DNA from: an uncultured Ignavibacteria bacterium
GTDB lineage: Bacteria > Bacteroidota > Ignavibacteria > Kapaibacteriales > Kapaibacteriaceae
Reading direction: 5' to 3'
Assembly (NCBI GenBank): GCA_937870915.1
Contig: CALMZQ010000003.1
Coordinates: forward strand, 124,001-188,000
Length of the DNA stretch: 64,000 nt
In this document: positions 2,246 through 58,749 of the stretch, one piece after another
Layout of the letters: each line of letters starts with the position of its first letter
Position numbering within the stretch: position 1 is the stretch's first letter
The notes under the pieces: model-generated
Databases searched by the model: none
What the model saw: only the letters and a program-made list of their open reading frames with translations
What the model was told of the DNA's origin: nothing
Program-made: the position numbers and the translations under genes

Positions 2246-4548
2246 ACCGATATCTAGGCCATATCGCCAGTTTGATCTTCGCCTGTTGCTACCTCGCATC
2301 TCCATTGCGAGCACAGTGGAAAGAAGTGCAATTGCCCGCCCCCTACACCGGCGGATATTATCTGGATGTCTTCTTTTTGCCAGGTGACCCCAATCTTGGA
2401 TGGGTCTGTGGAAGAAACGGCGAGGTGATTCGGACAACGGATGGAGGGGAAACATGGCGAGGTGTTACTATCCCGAACGCCTTCTTAGAATACGTGCAGT
2501 TTCTGACTCCAAAGATTGGCTATGTATCTGGTCACGCGGGAGTGTATCGTAGTGACGATGGCGGTATCTCTTGGCGAGATATCACTCCGCTAGATCCCAA
2601 TTACGAAAAGGGATGGGGCTCTTACTGGATCAATCAGAACGAAGGTGTCTACTTTGTTGGTGGTTGCGCGTCCGGTATACAGGCGTTCTACCGAACTACA
2701 AATGCAGGACAGAATTGGACCGTTTCGTTTGGAACGGAGCCAATGAGTGGTTTGAGTGACGGGTTGATCTTCCGCAACGGGAGTGGGTATGCTGTCAGCA
2801 GCGGAGTCCTCTGGCAAACAACAGATTTCGGTAGGACCTGGCGGATATTCTCACGTACTGGCAGTAAGGTATGGTCAGAAGAACTTGCCATCTTTGGCAA
2901 TGCAATGCTCATTCCCACGGCAGGGAATAATTGCGATGGCAATACCAGTGGCGTTGGTTCGATGCGTTATAGTGGTGATGGGGGTAGAACGTGGGCTGAA
3001 TATCAAACCGGTACCAACATGTTCGGTAGCTTCCTCCTAGATGAACGCAGGGGATGGGGTGTAGGTAATGACAGAACGGTACTCTATACCGATGATGCCG
3101 GTGAATCCTGGACCAATCGAAATTGTGGGATCAGGGGCCATATAGACGATATCTTCTTTATTAGCGACACCCTTGGATGGGCAGTAGGTGAAGGCGTCTA
3201 CAGAAGCAACTTCAACGCACCGGGACCCAAGGTCTCCATTTTCCCAACTGACGATGTGGTCTATATCTGCAAGGGCGATAGCGCATTCGTAGAGGCCGTG
3301 TCCGCCGTAGATAGATACTCGTGGAGTGATGGTGTAAAGGCACCGGGCAGATATCTCACGGAACCGGGACGTTATATCGTATCGGTTTATGATGCAACTA
3401 CGTGCGCTGAATCCAAGGATACTATCCGTGTTATCCTCAAGAGTACGTTCGAGCCTCGTATCACTTCTGTGCCGAAAACGGTATGTGAGGGCGACTCTAT
3501 CACCCTGAGTATTGATGGTCCGATCGAAACATGGTGGTGGTCCAATGGTGACCGAACGCAGACAACGGTAGTGAAGACGGGTGGAAAGTACACGTGTGTT
3601 ACTCTCGATTCTAGTGGCTGCGTTTGGACCTCTGAAATCAACGTTACCATCAACCCCAGACCAAAACCAACGATTCAAGCGAATCGTTCACTTACTATCT
3701 GTCTCGATGATGTGATCACCCTTTCGGCTTCTCCTGGTTACAAGAGCTACAGTTGGAATAATGGAGAAACAAGCCGATCCTTTACTACGGACCAGGGCAG
3801 AGCCTATGTTGTGACTGTAGTAGATGCTAATGGTTGCGTTGGTAGCTCGGACACAATTCGCGTGGTCAAGCTCGATACACGCAACAAGGCAAGCGTAATG
3901 CTCAGCCCGGGAGATGGTGGTGTGATTATCGTCAATGACCACAACGTGGGAACCCTCACATGTCGCACTGTCCGGGTTCAAAACATATCGCTGGACGAAC
4001 CCTATGTGATTTCCAAACCCTTCTTTGTTGGCAACGTTTATTTCTCCCTTCCTCAAGCACAATTCCCCATTGTCATCGCTCCGGGTGGCATCGGTGAGTT
4101 AACCCTATGTTCCTCTGCAATCGATTCGGGAATGGTGGAGGATACGTTAGCTCTGCCGGACACCTGCTCCGTTGGAAAGGTCCCAGTTCGAAGTAGGGGG
4201 CTTGCCATTGCCTTCACCGGGTCATCTCGCTGCGATGTGAATGTGGCCGCTCTCGTGATCAGCGCAGGCACCTCTTGGCGACTCTCAGCCCCTTTTCCTG
4301 TGCCTGCCTCTACGAACCTGACGATAACCGCAAAACACGTGCAGGGCCCTCATGCAGAGCTCACAGCGGTATTGCGGGACGTTACCGGTAGGCTCATTAC
4401 CTCTGCATCCGCCCAAAGTGCGATTGGATCCGAAACAGACATATCTCTCAACGTAAACGGACTACCCACCGGACCGTATGTGTTGTCGGTCATAGCAAAT
4501 GGAGAGGTGCTGGGAAGTAGCTATCAGGTGATGATTACTAATTACTAG
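2242..4548 (+). CDS. YCF48/BNR-type beta-propeller protein with Ig-like repeats and T9SS-type C-terminus
   Basis: Repeated 'TTDGGETWRG', 'SDDGGISWRD', 'TTDFGRTWRI' Asp-box motifs; 'GDSITLS.DG....WWWSNG' modules; stop codon lies in a heptamer array. Confidence 0.75.
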   Translation: MNRYLGHIASLIFACCYLASPLRAQWKEVQLPAPYTGGYYLDVFFLPGDPNLGWVCGRNGEVIRTTDGGETWRGVTIPNAFLEYVQFLTPKIGYVSGHAGVYRSDDGGISWRDITPLDPNYEKGWGSYWINQNEGVYFVGGCASGIQAFYRTTNAGQNWTVSFGTEPMSGLSDGLIFRNGSGYAVSSGVLWQTTDFGRTWRIFSRTGSKVWSEELAIFGNAMLIPTAGNNCDGNTSGVGSMRYSGDGGRTWAEYQTGTNMFGSFLLDERRGWGVGNDRTVLYTDDAGESWTNRNCGIRGHIDDIFFISDTLGWAVGEGVYRSNFNAPGPKVSIFPTDDVVYICKGDSAFVEAVSAVDRYSWSDGVKAPGRYLTEPGRYIVSVYDATTCAESKDTIRVILKSTFEPRITSVPKTVCEGDSITLSIDGPIETWWWSNGDRTQTTVVKTGGKYTCVTLDSSGCVWTSEINVTINPRPKPTIQANRSLTICLDDVITLSASPGYKSYSWNNGETSRSFTTDQGRAYVVTVVDANGCVGSSDTIRVVKLDTRNKASVMLSPGDGGVIIVNDHNVGTLTCRTVRVQNISLDEPYVISKPFFVGNVYFSLPQAQFPIVIAPGGIGELTLCSSAIDSGMVEDTLALPDTCSVGKVPVRSRGLAIAFTGSSRCDVNVAALVISAGTSWRLSAPFPVPASTNLTITAKHVQGPHAELTAVLRDVTGRLITSASAQSAIGSETDISLNVNGLPTGPYVLSVIANGEVLGSSYQVMITNY

Positions 4549-4610
4549 TTACTAGTTACGAGTTACTAGTTACTAGTTACTAGTTACTAATTACGAGTTA
4601 CTAGTTACGA
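4534..4610. repeat. Heptamer tandem array, unit (G/A)TTACTA or GTTACGA, about 11 copies
   Basis: Direct reading: attacta attacta gttacta gttacga gttacta ... gttacga. Confidence 0.95.
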
Positions 4611-4635
4611 GTGATTGGTTGGGTGTTACTTTGAT

Positions 4636-4691
4636 AAGTCATAACGTCATAACGTCATAACGTCATAATGTCATACCGTCATAACGTCATA
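4636..4691. repeat. Octamer tandem array, unit ACGTCATA, 7 copies
   Basis: aagtcata acgtcata acgtcata acgtcata atgtcata ccgtcata acgtcata. Confidence 0.95.
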
Positions 4692-4750
4692 ATCCGCTTC
4701 CGGGTCTTAATAAGGACAGACAGGGCTGAAAAGTTTGTAATTTTGCCCCT

Positions 4751-20020: not shown

Positions 20021-20030
20021 ACGTTAAGAT

Positions 20031-20106
20031 AATGACGGAATGACGTAATGACTAATGACGTCGGGCTTTAGCCCGATGCGTGGTGACGTCGGGCTTTAGC
20101 CCGATG
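20031..20106. repeat. AATGACGN octamers followed by two REP-like hairpins TGACGTCGGGCTTTAGCCCGATG
   Basis: Direct copies at 20056-20078 and 20084-20106; CGGGCT-TT-AGCCCG stem. Confidence 0.9.
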
Positions 20107-20144
20107 TTATGGGGATACGGAGATACGATGTTACGGAGTTACGG

Positions 20145-20264
20145 CGTAGGGGCGAGGCCCCGCCTCGTTCGGTGTTGGGATGTGGCGGAGTTACGGAGAT
20201 ACGTCGTAGGGGCGAGGCCCCGCCTCGCCCGGTGTTGAGATGTGGCGGAGTTGGGATGTGGCGG
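20145..20264. repeat. Two tandem copies of about 60 bp containing the palindrome GTAGGGGCGAGGCCCCGCCTCG
   Basis: cgtaggggcgaggccccgcctcgttcggtgttgggatgtggcggagttacggagatacgt repeated with few changes. Confidence 0.85.
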
Positions 20265-29376: not shown

Positions 29377-32193
29377 ATGCGTCCACTCATCCTCATTGAC
29401 GGTATGTCGCTGGTATTCCGCGCGTACCATGCATTGCTCCGCACCGGCATGCAGTCGCCCTCCGGCGAACCAACATTTGCCGTATTCGCCTTTGCCAACA
29501 TCCTCACATCGCTGCTCGATAAGCATAACCCGGATGCGATAGCTGTGGTCTTCGACACTCCCGAACCCACCTTTCGGCATGTCCTCTACGACCAATACAA
29601 GGCCCACCGCGATGCGTTCCCGGAGGACCTCGTACCTCAACTGCTCCGCATCAAACAATTAGTTGGGCTGATGGGCTTGGAGATGGTAGAGATGCCGGGG
29701 TTTGAGGCCGACGATATTGTGGGCACTATCTGTAAGCGAGAAGGTGATGACGGCCACGAAATCCTTTGTGTTACGTCCGACAAGGACTACTTCCAGCTCG
29801 TGAACAACAACGTAAAGATCCTTCGACCAGGAAAGGACGTTGGGCAATACGACGTGATGGATGCAGCCAGCGTCAAGGTAAAGTTCGGCGTTGGCCCGGA
29901 ACACGTGATAGATGTTCTGGCACTTATTGGAGACAGCTCAGACAATGTCCCCGGTGTTAAGGGTGTTGGCGAAAAAACGGCCATCCCGCTCATTGAGCAG
30001 TTTGGATCTCTCGAAAAACTCTACGAAAATCTTGACGCCGTTGAAAGAGCCTCTGTGAAGAAGAAGCTCGAAGAGCACAGGGAAATGGCCTTCCTCTCCA
30101 AGACACTCGTAACGATCCACACAGACGTTCCGATCGATGCCAAACGAGTTGCTTTAGTTCGTAGACCAATGGACATTACAGGACTCGATACGTTCTGCGA
30201 AGAACTCGGCTTCCATACGTTGCGAAGGAAGTTCGCCAAGTATGGTCAGGGCAATGACGAAACGACGGAAGGACGAAGTGACACTGTGACGGAAGGACGA
30301 AGTGACACAGTGACGGAAGGACGAAATGACGGTTTAAAGAAGCTCAGTGACGTTGAGCACTCGTATATCTTGGTGGATACGCCAGGTGCACTTTCGGACA
30401 TGATGAATGGGTTGAAGGGGGCTACCCTACTCTCCGTCGATCTGGAGACAACAGGCTTGGATGCAATGCGGTGTGCGATTGTGGGAATAGCCCTGAGTGC
30501 TTCAGAGGGAACGGGCTATTACATCGATGTAGACGACTCGGCCATTGATAATGCCGGTTCACTCTTTGCTGACCATACTGAGCGGCATGGACTGCCCCTT
30601 GCAGACGTACTCTCCGTTGTGAAACCAATGTTGATCGATCCATTGATCGGCAAGTGTGGTCAGAACCTGAAGTACGACATGTTGATCTTAAAGAGGTATG
30701 GTATTGATGTTGCTCCCGTAGCATTTGACACAATGCTTGCGAGCTATGTGTTGGACCCGGATAGGCTTCACAATCTTGACGCCCTTTCCGAGCGATGGCT
30801 GCACTATGCTCCCATCTCGATCACCACCCTGATCGGTGAAAAGAAAGGACAACAGAAATCCATGCGCGACGTAGATGCTGCCCTCGTAGCGGAATACGCA
30901 GCAGAAGACGCAGACCTCGCATTGAAACTGACGAATCTGATGAAACCGGCACTTGAGAATGAAGGCCTGTTGGACTTTGCGCAGAAGGTTGAGTTTGCAT
31001 CGATCCCTGTCCTTGTGACGATGGAGAATAACGGCATCTGTATTGACACAAAGGCACTGGGTGGCTTGGGTGAGTTTATGCGGTCAGAAGCTGTGCGTCT
31101 TGAGGCAGAGATATGGAAGGAAGCCGGACAAGAGTTCACGATTGGTTCTCCTAAACAACTCGCAGAGGTATTGTTCGAGAACCTGATGCTTCCGGCTTCG
31201 AAGAAAACCAAGACCGGTTATTCTACAGACTCCAGTGTCCTTACGGAGTTGGCAGAGTCCTATCCGATTGCTCAAATGGTGCTAGACTACCGTCAAGTTG
31301 AGAAACTCCGCAGTACCTACGTGGAGTCTCTTCCACGTTTGATCAACCCGAACACGGGCAGGGTACACACTACATTTAACCAGACGGTTGCTGCAACTGG
31401 CAGACTCTCCTCTACAGATCCGAATCTCCAGAATATTCCGGTGAGAACGGAACTTGGGCAACAGATCCGCAAAGCCTTTGTTCCCCAGCATGCAGACCAT
31501 GTGATCCTTTCTGCAGACTATTCACAGATCGAACTACGTATTATGGCATCCTTCTCTAAGGATCCCAACCTCATCGCCGCTTTCGCTTCGGGAGCGGACA
31601 TCCATTCAGCAACTGCTGCCATTCTCTTTGACGTGCCGATCGACACTGTAACAGGGGATCAACGCAGGGTGGCAAAGACCGTAAACTTCGGTATCATGTA
31701 TGGTCAAGGGGCGTTTGGTCTCTCACAAGGCCTAGGGATACCTCGGGGCGAAGCCCAACAGATCATCGAGAACTACTTTGTGAAATATGCGGGTATTAAG
31801 AAGTACATCGATGAAACGGTAGCTGTCACTCGTGAGCGAGGCTATGCGTCCACGTTGCTTGGTCGCCGACGGTATTTCCCAACGATCAATGCAAGCAATC
31901 GCGGACTCCGCACTGCAGCCGAGCGTGCTGCCATCAACATGCCCATACAGGGGACGGCCGCGGACATGATCAAACTGGCCATGATCCGCGTTCATCAGCG
32001 AATGCAAAACGAAGGATTACGATCGATCCTGATGCTACAGGTGCATGATGAGCTCGTCTTTGAAGCACATGTTTCGGAGGTTGATGCGCTCACAAGGATA
32101 GCAAAGGAAGAGATGGAGCAAGCCCTGCCGCTTGAGAACGTACCTGTGGTTGTAGAGACTGGCAAGGGGGCATCGTGGTATGAAGCCCATTGA
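29377..32193 (+). CDS. polA: DNA polymerase I
   Basis: 5'-nuclease start 'LILIDGMSLVFRAYHAL', 3'-5' exo-like 'LLSVDLETTGLDAM', Pol A motifs 'ILSADYSQIELRIMA', 'RRVAKTVNFGIMYG', 'LQVHDELVFE'. Confidence 0.97.
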   Translation: MRPLILIDGMSLVFRAYHALLRTGMQSPSGEPTFAVFAFANILTSLLDKHNPDAIAVVFDTPEPTFRHVLYDQYKAHRDAFPEDLVPQLLRIKQLVGLMGLEMVEMPGFEADDIVGTICKREGDDGHEILCVTSDKDYFQLVNNNVKILRPGKDVGQYDVMDAASVKVKFGVGPEHVIDVLALIGDSSDNVPGVKGVGEKTAIPLIEQFGSLEKLYENLDAVERASVKKKLEEHREMAFLSKTLVTIHTDVPIDAKRVALVRRPMDITGLDTFCEELGFHTLRRKFAKYGQGNDETTEGRSDTVTEGRSDTVTEGRNDGLKKLSDVEHSYILVDTPGALSDMMNGLKGATLLSVDLETTGLDAMRCAIVGIALSASEGTGYYIDVDDSAIDNAGSLFADHTERHGLPLADVLSVVKPMLIDPLIGKCGQNLKYDMLILKRYGIDVAPVAFDTMLASYVLDPDRLHNLDALSERWLHYAPISITTLIGEKKGQQKSMRDVDAALVAEYAAEDADLALKLTNLMKPALENEGLLDFAQKVEFASIPVLVTMENNGICIDTKALGGLGEFMRSEAVRLEAEIWKEAGQEFTIGSPKQLAEVLFENLMLPASKKTKTGYSTDSSVLTELAESYPIAQMVLDYRQVEKLRSTYVESLPRLINPNTGRVHTTFNQTVAATGRLSSTDPNLQNIPVRTELGQQIRKAFVPQHADHVILSADYSQIELRIMASFSKDPNLIAAFASGADIHSATAAILFDVPIDTVTGDQRRVAKTVNFGIMYGQGAFGLSQGLGIPRGEAQQIIENYFVKYAGIKKYIDETVAVTRERGYASTLLGRRRYFPTINASNRGLRTAAERAAINMPIQGTAADMIKLAMIRVHQRMQNEGLRSILMLQVHDELVFEAHVSEVDALTRIAKEEMEQALPLENVPVVVETGKGASWYEAH
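30253..30332. repeat. Octamer tandem array inside polA, 10 units
   Basis: aatgacga aacgacgg aaggacga agtgacac tgtgacgg aaggacga agtgacac agtgacgg aaggacga aatgacgg; encodes TEGRSDTV repeats. Confidence 0.95.
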
Positions 32194-46613: not shown

Positions 46614-46629
46614 GGAAATTACGGATATC

Positions 46630-46775
46630 TAGTTACTCAGTTACTAGTTACTAGTTACTCGGTTACTAGTTACTCGGTTACTCGGTTACTAGTTACTCAG
46701 ATACTCAGTTACAGTAACTAGTAACTAGTAACCAGTAACTAGTAACTAGTAACTAGTAATTAGTCACTAGTCATT
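46630..46775. repeat. Mixed 7/8-mer array: AGTTACT(C) direct arm followed by inverted AGTAACT arm
   Basis: agttactc agttact agttact agttactc ggttact ... agtaact agtaact agtaacc agtaact agtaact agtaact agtaatt. Confidence 0.95.
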
Positions 46776-47450
46776 ACTCCCAAGTCCTTCGTCGTTCACC
46801 GAACGGTGACGTACAAGTTTGGCCTCGGCGAGGAAGATAACGTTCTCGGCGATGTTGGTGGCATGATCGGCCATACGTTCGAGGTTGTAGAGGCCAAGGA
46901 GGAGTTGGGCCCCATCTGCCACGAGTGTGCTATCTGCGATCATGATCTCGATGAGTTCATTGCGCAGGGTATCGTAGAGCTGGTCCACCGTAAAGTCTGA
47001 AGGGAGGACGTGGGCAGCAAGTTCGGGATCGTTATTGATGAAGGCATCGAGGCTTGATTTCAGCATGGTATATGCTGCATTGGCGATGCGATTCATATCG
47101 ATCTGATTGGCCAGCTGTACAGCGTTCGGTGAGACCACAACGATCGATGCAATATTCGTTGCCATATCGCCGATACGTTCAAGCTCGTTGTTGATCTTCA
47201 TCGCTGCGAGGAGCAGACGAAGATCCGTAGCAACGGGCTGATTGAGCGCAAAGATGCGCTGACATTGTTTGTCGATCTTGAGATCGAGTTTGTCCACCTT
47301 GTCATCACGATCGATCACGATCAGTGCCAATTCTTGATTGCCTTCGCGAAGGGCGCGAAAAGCAAATTCTACCTGCTCTTCAACGAGCGAACCCATGCGG
47401 ATGAGTCGCGTGCGGAGTTTGTCGAGATCTTCTTCAAATGTGCGGTTCAT
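46767..47450 (-). CDS. phoU: Phosphate signalling complex protein PhoU
   Basis: 'FEEDLDKLRTRLIRMGSLVEEQVEFAFRAL', 'NNELERIGDMATNIA', 'NLERMADHATNIAENVIFL'. Confidence 0.95.
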   Translation of the reverse strand: MNRTFEEDLDKLRTRLIRMGSLVEEQVEFAFRALREGNQELALIVIDRDDKVDKLDLKIDKQCQRIFALNQPVATDLRLLLAAMKINNELERIGDMATNIASIVVVSPNAVQLANQIDMNRIANAAYTMLKSSLDAFINNDPELAAHVLPSDFTVDQLYDTLRNELIEIMIADSTLVADGAQLLLGLYNLERMADHATNIAENVIFLAEAKLVRHRSVNDEGLGSND

Positions 47451-56202: not shown

Positions 56203-57779
56203 TCGTTGATCTCCAACAGCGTAGGACATATCCGGGCATTGTTGAGTTTGTTGATGGTGTGATCACTGCGGTACGAGAAGATCCGAATGCTCGCACTGAT
56301 CGATATATCATGCCGGGATTTGTAGATGCACACGTGCATGTGGAGTCGAGCATGCTCATCCCAAGCGAGTTTGCACGTCTCGCAGTAGTCCATGGAACCG
56401 TTGCCACAGTCAGTGATCCGCATGAGATCGGCAATGTGTGTGGGGTAAAAGGTGTGCGGTATATGCTCGACAATGGGGCTCGTGTTCCATTCACGTTTGC
56501 ATTTGGAGCCCCTTCTTGTGTTCCGGCAACAACATTTGAAACGGCCGGTGCAGAGATCACGGCGTCGGACATCCGCGAGCTGTTCAACGACGAGCGCATT
56601 CGGTATCTGAGTGAGATGATGAATTGGCCGGGTGTGTTGCATAGCGACCCGGTGGTGATGGAGAAGTTGGCCGTTGCAAAGGAATGCGGAAGGGTGATCG
56701 ATGGTCACGCCCCTGGCCTTCGTGGCGAACAAGCTGCTTCGTATGCTTCCCATGGGATTTCAACAGACCACGAGTGTTTTACGCTGGAAGAGGCGTTGGA
56801 CAAGGTTTCAGCGGGAATGAAGATCCTCATTCGGGAAGGCAGTGCTGCGCGGAACTACGAAGCACTCCATCCGATCATCGGACTCCATCCCGATCGAGTG
56901 ATGTTCTGCTCGGATGATATGCATCCGGACTCGCTTGTGCTTGGACACATCAACCTCCTGGTTTCCCGCTCTGTTGCACTTGGCTACAACGTCTTTGATG
57001 TATTGCGTGCGGCCTGCGTGCATCCTGTTGAACATTATGGGCTTCCGGTTGGTCTGCTTCGAGTTGGAGATCCCGCCGACATGATCGTTGTTGAGGATCT
57101 GACTTCGTTCGCCGTTCAACAAACATGGATCAAGGGGCGGTGTGTTGCGAACAATGGAACCACGGGAATCGACCATGTTGTAGAACGTGTCATCAATCAG
57201 TTCGCCAGTGATCCCATCACCACAGAACAGATCGCAGCAGACCATATCGGCAAGAACGTCCGTGTGATCGTTGCCCATGATGGTCAGCTCGTAACATCAG
57301 AAGAGCACCACATCCTCCCATCGAATGATGTTCTGAAGATTGTTGTTGTGAATCGCTATTCCAATGCGCCCCCTGCCATCGCCTACATCAAGAACATTGG
57401 GCTCAAGACCGGCGCGATAGCCAGCAGCGTTGCACACGACTCACATAACATCGTGGCCGTTGGTTGTTCCGATGTCGAGATCGTGGAAGCAGTGAACGCA
57501 ATCATTTCTGCGCGTGGCGGTGTGTGTGTTACGGCGGATGGTCAGACCGATCTGCTTCCACTGCCCGTGGCCGGCCTTATGTCCAATCTCGACGGATATG
57601 ACGTTGCTCGCACCTACGCAGCGCTTGATGCACGAGCCAAAGCACTTGGCTCCCAACTCCGTGCCCCTTTCATGACGATATCCTTTATGGCACTTCTCGT
57701 TATCCCTCAATTGAAGTTGAGTGATAAGGGGCTGTTTGATGGAAGCAGGTTTGAGTTCGTTAGATTGCTAGAGTGTTAG
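56172..57779 (+). CDS. ade: Adenine deaminase
   Basis: 'YIMPGFVDAHVHVESSMLIPSEFARLAVVHGTVATVSDPHEIGNVCG', 'MFCSDDMHPDSL'; GTG start at 56172 inferred; C-terminal RLLEC and stop fall in an octamer array. Confidence 0.92.
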   Translation: MAVQNTIDGLIVDLQQRRTYPGIVEFVDGVITAVREDPNARTDRYIMPGFVDAHVHVESSMLIPSEFARLAVVHGTVATVSDPHEIGNVCGVKGVRYMLDNGARVPFTFAFGAPSCVPATTFETAGAEITASDIRELFNDERIRYLSEMMNWPGVLHSDPVVMEKLAVAKECGRVIDGHAPGLRGEQAASYASHGISTDHECFTLEEALDKVSAGMKILIREGSAARNYEALHPIIGLHPDRVMFCSDDMHPDSLVLGHINLLVSRSVALGYNVFDVLRAACVHPVEHYGLPVGLLRVGDPADMIVVEDLTSFAVQQTWIKGRCVANNGTTGIDHVVERVINQFASDPITTEQIAADHIGKNVRVIVAHDGQLVTSEEHHILPSNDVLKIVVVNRYSNAPPAIAYIKNIGLKTGAIASSVAHDSHNIVAVGCSDVEIVEAVNAIISARGGVCVTADGQTDLLPLPVAGLMSNLDGYDVARTYAALDARAKALGSQLRAPFMTISFMALLVIPQLKLSDKGLFDGSRFEFVRLLEC

Positions 57780-57888
57780 ATTGGTAGAGTGTTAGATTGC
57801 TAGAGTGTTAGATTGCTAGAGTGTTAGATTGCTAGATGAAGAGTTGAAACTCTAACATTCTAGCACTCTAACAATCTAACACTCTAAC
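57759..57888. repeat. Octamer arrays: GTTAGATT/GCTAGAGT (10 units) then inverted ACTCTAAC/AATCTAAC (5 units)
   Basis: Direct reading; second arm ends immediately before the ATG at 57889. Confidence 0.95.
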
Positions 57889-58749
57889 ATGCTCCCCCTA
57901 GACTCCTCCCTCATCCGTCTCATTCAGTTTGCGATCCGTGAGGATCTCGGTACGGGGGATATCACGAGTGACCTGAGTATTCCGCGTGATGCAACAGCTG
58001 CTGCGCGATTCTTGATGAAGCAAGATGGAGTGGTATGTGGCTTGCCGATGCTTCAGCTTGTGTTTCGCGAGTTCTCCTCTGATGTAGATATCGAACTCAA
58101 GGTGAACGAAGGGGATCGTATCAAGAGTGGAACAGTGATCGCACTCGTGGAAGGGCCTGCACATGCACTTTTGGCTGGTGAACGAACTGCATTGAATTTC
58201 ATTCAACGTATGAGTGGTGTTGCCACCAAGTCTCGTCAGTATGTTGATCAGATAGTCGGCACCAAGGCTCGTGTTCTCGATACACGCAAGACCATTCCTG
58301 GTTGGAGATTGTTGGACAAATACGCAACTACAGTCGGTGGAGCATTCAATCATCGCCTTGGACTTTACGACATGGTGATGATCAAGGATAATCACATCAC
58401 GGCATGTGGTGGTATTCGCGAGGCGGTTAGTACCATCGTTGCGGATCTGCACGATAGACCGATGATAAAGGTAGAGGTAGAGGCCCGTTCACTCGATGAT
58501 GTGTTGGAAATCCTTCAATGTAAAGGCGTACATCGTGTGATGTTCGACAACTTTACACCAGAGGCTGTTGCCGAAGGTGTTCGTTTGGTTGATGGCCGAC
58601 TCGAAACGGAAGCTTCTGGTGGAATCAGCTTCGAAAATATTCGCGACTATGCCGAAGCGGGTGTCGATTTCATTAGCGTGGGCGCAATTACACATAGCGC
58701 AACTGCTCTCGACATTTCCATGAAGTTGTTTGTCCCCAAACAGGGTTGA
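57889..58749 (+). CDS. nadC: Nicotinate-nucleotide diphosphorylase (quinolinate phosphoribosyltransferase)
   Basis: 'LIQFAIREDLGTGDITSD', 'GERTALNFIQRMSGVAT', 'DTRKTIPGWRLLDKYATTVGGAFNHRLGLYDMVMIKDNHI'. Confidence 0.96.
   Translation: MLPLDSSLIRLIQFAIREDLGTGDITSDLSIPRDATAAARFLMKQDGVVCGLPMLQLVFREFSSDVDIELKVNEGDRIKSGTVIALVEGPAHALLAGERTALNFIQRMSGVATKSRQYVDQIVGTKARVLDTRKTIPGWRLLDKYATTVGGAFNHRLGLYDMVMIKDNHITACGGIREAVSTIVADLHDRPMIKVEVEARSLDDVLEILQCKGVHRVMFDNFTPEAVAEGVRLVDGRLETEASGGISFENIRDYAEAGVDFISVGAITHSATALDISMKLFVPKQG

Follow-up and report, generated by a model that had tools for sequence, protein, structure and literature searches.

An octamer array of the genome's intergenic repeat family in a stop-free register within the DNA polymerase I gene of a Kapaibacteriaceae bacterium

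Described intergenic repeats and the array in polA

The STRR heptamers of heterocystous cyanobacteria form degenerate short tandem arrays between genes and have been reported inside some functional RNA genes; no STRR array that codes for protein and has its stop register removed is known to us. In Beggiatoaceae, Cyanobacteria and some Bacteroidetes, direct repeats of the heptamer TAACTGA likewise form mostly intergenic short tandem 7-nt arrays (MacGregor 2015, PMC4679880). In the orientation that carries stops in all three frames they are found only at ORF ends, and in the open reverse orientation they can encode protein, usually its ends (PMC4679880). Rickettsia palindromic elements (RPEs), repeats of 100-150 bp, sit in frame inside housekeeping ORFs, including that of DNA polymerase III alpha, and ATGAC is characteristic of RPE-4/6/7 at ~16-34 per kb (PMC3767692). 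Intergenic repeats with a stop in every frame would be expected in their stop-bearing orientation only at gene ends, and the array described here, inside the gene for DNA polymerase I, is a clean exception. Short tandem repeats are a known kind; what is unusual here is to find one within a core gene in its stop-bearing orientation. A search of the accessible literature returned nothing relevant on polA linker repeats with in-frame stop loss and no precedent for a stop-bearing array, placed mid-gene in a core gene, that has a stop-free cycle specific to the frame.

The window analyzed is a 64,000-nucleotide stretch of the genome of an uncultured Ignavibacteria bacterium. Its polA gene (29377..32193, + strand) encodes a DNA polymerase I of 938 aa with Pfam matches above the cut-off to 5_3_exonuc_N, 5_3_exonuc, DNA_pol_A_exo1 and DNA_pol_A, and the 5'-nuclease, 3'-5' exonuclease-like and polymerase domains place the protein in family A. 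Orthologues were found in 61/61 genomes, the named neighbors being Candidatus Kapaibacterium and Ignavibacteria MAGs. The array (30253..30332, + strand; 24-nt period, 2.8 copies, 95%) consists of ten units, in order AATGACGA AACGACGG AAGGACGA AGTGACAC TGTGACGG AAGGACGA AGTGACAC AGTGACGG AAGGACGA AATGACGG, and encodes residues 293-319 with the peptide NDETTEGRSDTVTEGRSDTVTEGRNDG. The sequence-only reading had described ten contiguous octamers in the polA frame between the 5'-nuclease and 3'-5' exonuclease-like regions. The description proved accurate when the units were reread, and the Pfam boundaries agree with it, as 5_3_exonuc ends at residue 266 and DNA_pol_A_exo1 starts at residue 330.

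Array statistics were taken from 1.17 Mb of stretches, partly picked for array-bearing contigs, with gene calls of our own, and pattern searches covered the entire genome. Period-7 and period-8 tandem arrays are a genome-wide feature and avoid genes, with ~7-10% of array bases inside called genes compared to ~89% of the sequence being coding (0.83 Mb; the array-base totals include a ~2.1 kb run of N). Several motif families coexist, of the TGAC, GTTAC, GTGCTAGA and GAATAGC types. When TGAC octamer arrays of at least five units were counted, the 1.17 Mb sample contained 35, comprising 30 noncoding arrays, four antisense arrays at gene starts, read on the stop-free strand, and one sense array, that of polA, which is the sole one of the 35 read in the stop-bearing direction. 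A search for other coding octamer arrays, suggested by the sequence-only reading, yielded just these four antisense cases in the sample. A position matrix of our own, built from the noncoding octamer units of the genome, scored the polA stretch at +81 bits, compared to -52 for the highest-scoring coding window in 894 called genes once the five coding arrays were set aside. All ten contiguous units follow the period-8 NRTGACNN pattern, with the T, and thereby the TGAC core, lost in 4/10. On the basis of this score and the census, we assign the polA array to the intergenic octamer family of the genome, for which a noncoding location, not shared by the polA array, is typical and not required.

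Two noncoding arrays of the window serve for comparison. One is an intergenic array of seven units of the TGAC octamer family (4636..4691, - strand). The other, noted earlier near 20031, is real and consists of four short intergenic units of the AATGACGG type (20030..20061, + strand); beside it, at 20130-20252, a 60-bp unit is repeated twice at 92%. Adjoining period-7 and period-8 arrays, some of them inverted pairs, occupy intergenic regions of the window at 4527-4695, 46629-46781 and 57759-57893, and elsewhere at L063:13451-13572, L087:2285-2505 and L098:15868-15995. A gene 3' end is touched by 46/80 array regions and a 5' end by 28/80, and 17/80 lie between convergent genes.

Frame-specific loss of TGA and the 24-nt register

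Because 8 is coprime to 3, the TGA of the octamer comes into frame once in three units. Codon position 1 coincides with the third base of a unit at 30271, 30295 and 30319 alone, in units 3 (30269..30276), 6 (30293..30300) and 9 (30317..30324), all on the + strand and all AAGGACGA, and this base is G in 3/3, giving GGA at the position of the in-frame TGA. An out-of-frame TGA is retained in 6/7 of the remaining units, the exception being unit 2 with CGA. The pattern is exactly as the sequence-only reading had reported, and the array is stop-free only through changes in the polA frame. The absence of in-frame stops is required of any ORF; the informative part is the TGA retained off frame. Recoding or read-through of TGA was considered and dropped, as the array has no in-frame TGA and needs neither.

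The first base of TGAC in noncoding units is T in 216/225 and G in 1/225. Among four-unit windows genome-wide, 209 start with T (four of them in polA) and nine with another base (three in polA); outside polA this leaves 205 and six, none of which starts with GGAC. The V-T-T-V-T pattern, corresponding to two stop-free cycles, had no match except polA in 12 congeneric genomes. Ten-unit arrays resampled from the family were stop-free in the polA frame with a probability of ~5e-5, the antisense strand was open in ~60% of redrawn arrays, and 0/48 sense frames were open among the real noncoding arrays.

The array also carries a 24-nt register. Units 3-5 (30269..30292) and 6-8 (30293..30316), both on the + strand, form two near-identical 24-mers that differ at 1/24 bases, a putative frame-preserving duplication unit, and unit 9 opens a third, more diverged copy. 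Identity within the array is 0.82 at lag 24, 0.64 at lag 8 and 0.62 at lag 16, an excess at lag 24 of 0.18, compared to at most 0.01 in 16 noncoding arrays. The excess stays when the T/G column is masked (0.82 versus 0.70 and 0.68). Additionally, the three GGA units are identical, and neither AAGGACGA nor AGTGACAC occurs in any of the 260 other units (0/260 for each). The sequence-only reading had proposed that the array was purged of in-frame stops; three separate purges are not borne out: because the 24-mers are near-identical, the AAGGACGA units are the same, and AAGGACGA and AGTGACAC are absent elsewhere, one change plus 24-bp duplication is simpler. Judged from the unit sequences, the simplest history would be a single T-to-G change copied by 24-bp three-unit duplications, for which a stop-bearing ancestor within the gene would be unnecessary.

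A 24-nt register is possible for any coding repeat, hydrophilic linkers are common, and the PolA linkers of relatives all differ from one another. The array could on these grounds be an ordinary low-complexity protein linker, with TEGRSDTV produced by local duplication of 24 nt of codons and its likeness to the octamer coincidental. We consider this unlikely, as all ten units fit the octamer, including units 1, 2 and 10 outside the 24-mers, the matrix separates the array from the best non-array coding window by the scores given above, and a peptide makes no demand for the TGA kept off frame in 6/7 units. A phase-variation (contingency) locus, in which gain or loss of 8-nt units would shift the frame into TGA and switch off the polymerase part of PolA, is less probable still. 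As 8 is not divisible by 3 and the neighboring frames contain TGA, gain or loss of a unit would end PolA ahead of its polymerase domain. However, successive units match imperfectly (0.64 at lag 8), which disfavors 8-nt slippage, and the 24-nt register points to frame-keeping steps. Contingency loci are also usually surface or modification genes.

PolA linkers of relatives and repeats in other genes

The linkers of related PolA proteins share no sequence with the array-encoded linker, congeners included, and range from 27 to 54 aa at 38 other loci, compared to 41 aa here. The array peptide is private to this genome among the compared linkers. Between species, linker lengths do not show differences in multiples of 24 nt, the pattern that the sequence-only reading had suggested looking for, and the closest relative (84% identity) has a linker equally 41 aa long. 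For the earlier proposal that an intergenic-type repeat entered polA or expanded within it, membership of the family and privacy among the 38 other loci stand; insertion is unsupported, given the equal length of the closest relative's linker. The length being the same, the array would therefore have replaced or overgrown the old linker, and this equality is odd for insertion followed by growth.

An AlphaFold2 model of PolA (34-sequence alignment) had a mean pLDDT of 87.6, and the sole segment below 50, residues 293-318, is array-coded. This predicted disorder fits a hinge whose sequence may be free to drift. Neutral filling of the hinge is the most likely role of the array. One could instead suppose that a repeat-binding protein recognizes the octamers as DNA or RNA and that the polA copy is kept as a site, not for its peptide. 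In agreement, noncoding arrays conserve GAC at 99-100%, in part an outcome of a search that demanded GAC, TGA is kept off frame in 6/7 polA units, and a role as regulator sites has been proposed for similar heptamers (PMC4679880). The TGAC core is nevertheless gone from 4/10 polA units, RNA folding of the array is unremarkable (z -2.1), and no protein binding such octamers is known here, so that we regard a retained site as very improbable.

Octamer-like sequence was also seen in the congeners. The polA linker of the sister species G003 contains a short and weak octamer-like stretch, GATACGGAGATACAGA, of GATACGGA-like character (L003, reverse complement, ~2400-2450), with a lag-8 identity of 0.66, compared to at most 0.62 in the other relatives; it is perhaps a similar seed. 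A period-8 run of 273 in the polA locus of G009 was rejected, as it is a run of N. Octamer arrays of the TACGGANN type are numerous in G010, G005 and G009 (frequent in G010 and G005), compared to TGAC here; the dominant octamer motif differs from species to species at an unchanged period of 8.

A second core gene of the same genome, ftsK (L087:14169-17000, - strand, G000:C209), encodes a protein with Pfam FtsK_4TM, alpha, SpoIIIE and gamma domains and has two linkers built of 9-nt RTGAC units (AAT GAC GGT and alike), coding for NDG/NDS-type repeats. TGA is out of frame throughout these period-9 arrays, which are not present in the aligned congeners. They form a parallel case to the polA array. 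Few period-9 TGAC arrays occur outside this genome, which has 24 matches compared to three in eleven congeners. Some of them lie between genes, so that period 9 by itself is no adaptation to coding. The possibility that period 9 is a coding-only adaptation is weakened by three period-9 TGAC places (C46, C169, C177) without convincing ORFs.

Arrays in the stop-free orientation encode an N-terminal part resembling a signal peptide in three proteins, an M28 peptidase, a VWA/OmpA lipoprotein-like protein and a cytochrome c (L061:17742-17809; L091:9173-9242; L079:14760-14816). For the M28 peptidase, the matches of relatives begin after, or late within, the array-coded N-terminal part. Antisense TGAC arrays also directly precede LepA and UvrA or extend their N-termini (L098:8864-8944; L087:12332-12386), and the true starts of both are probably downstream of the arrays.

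Origin of the array and comparison with known repeats

We propose, with a probability of roughly three in four, that the polA array represents the genome's own family of intergenic octamers (NRTGACNN, period 8) in a stop-free register, grown by 24 nt in a disordered hinge of PolA. An octamer array would have originated in, or been brought into, the disordered and hypervariable hinge that joins the 5'-nuclease to the 3'-5' exonuclease-like and polymerase parts. Only a form in which the frame-meeting unit had changed, once, from T to G could have persisted, and growth by three-unit (24 nt) duplications would then have kept both the frame and the stop-free register. The product would be a hydrophilic TEGRSDTV spacer, its sequence probably of no consequence; the neutrality of the spacer is suggested by the variable linkers of relatives and the predicted disorder. 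The growth steps are read from one allele, that of the single genome covered for this species, in which slippage or unequal recombination may have been the mechanism, and the order of events given here is the one that we infer. A donor array with a matching 24-mer was not found, the closest other arrays being 76-78% identical over 78-88 bp, and for this reason origin by copying is inseparable from local growth of a short seed. That the array was collapsed or mis-joined during assembly or binning is barely credible: the draft assembly has 233 contigs and repeats are error-prone in such assemblies, but the frame is intact through the array, GGA occurs in frame only, and the contig of 188.5 kb carries conserved polA sequence on both sides.

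More broadly, and only tentatively, the process that makes these arrays may also work in core genes, with frame selection shaping the product: a 24-nt cycle with one stop-free unit in PolA and two linkers of 9-nt RTGACGGT-type units in FtsK. On this view, DNA-maintenance proteins might more than once have gained hinges from intergenic repeats, which on the stop-free strand might also have given rise to signal peptides. The polA array shows how reading-frame selection filters repeat growth and how a core gene tolerates such repeats, and it makes the growth unit (8 or 24 nt) directly testable by strain comparison.

Among described systems, RPEs share with the polA array a position in frame inside housekeeping ORFs, but they are not described as octamer tandem arrays, and their ATGAC density is far below one TGAC per 8 nt. 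They are larger, palindromic elements of ~100-150 bp and of a different build, unlike this 80-bp tandem array with a folding z-score of only -2.1, which is not classed with them. The four antisense arrays resemble the open orientation of TAACTGA, which can be coding (PMC4679880). In contrast to TAACTGA heptamers, the units here measure 8 nt, with 7 and 9 nt also present, several motif families occur together, and a core gene carries in its middle part one array that has the stop-bearing orientation but replacements at its in-frame stops. STRR repeats have tandem degenerate intergenic arrays in common with this family, whereas their unit is of 7 nt and their motifs are unrelated to the polA array. 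Having an 8-nt unit and the NRTGACNN motif in place of a 7-nt unit and a published motif, the polA array works like the STRR and TAACTGA repeats, yet is classed as neither.
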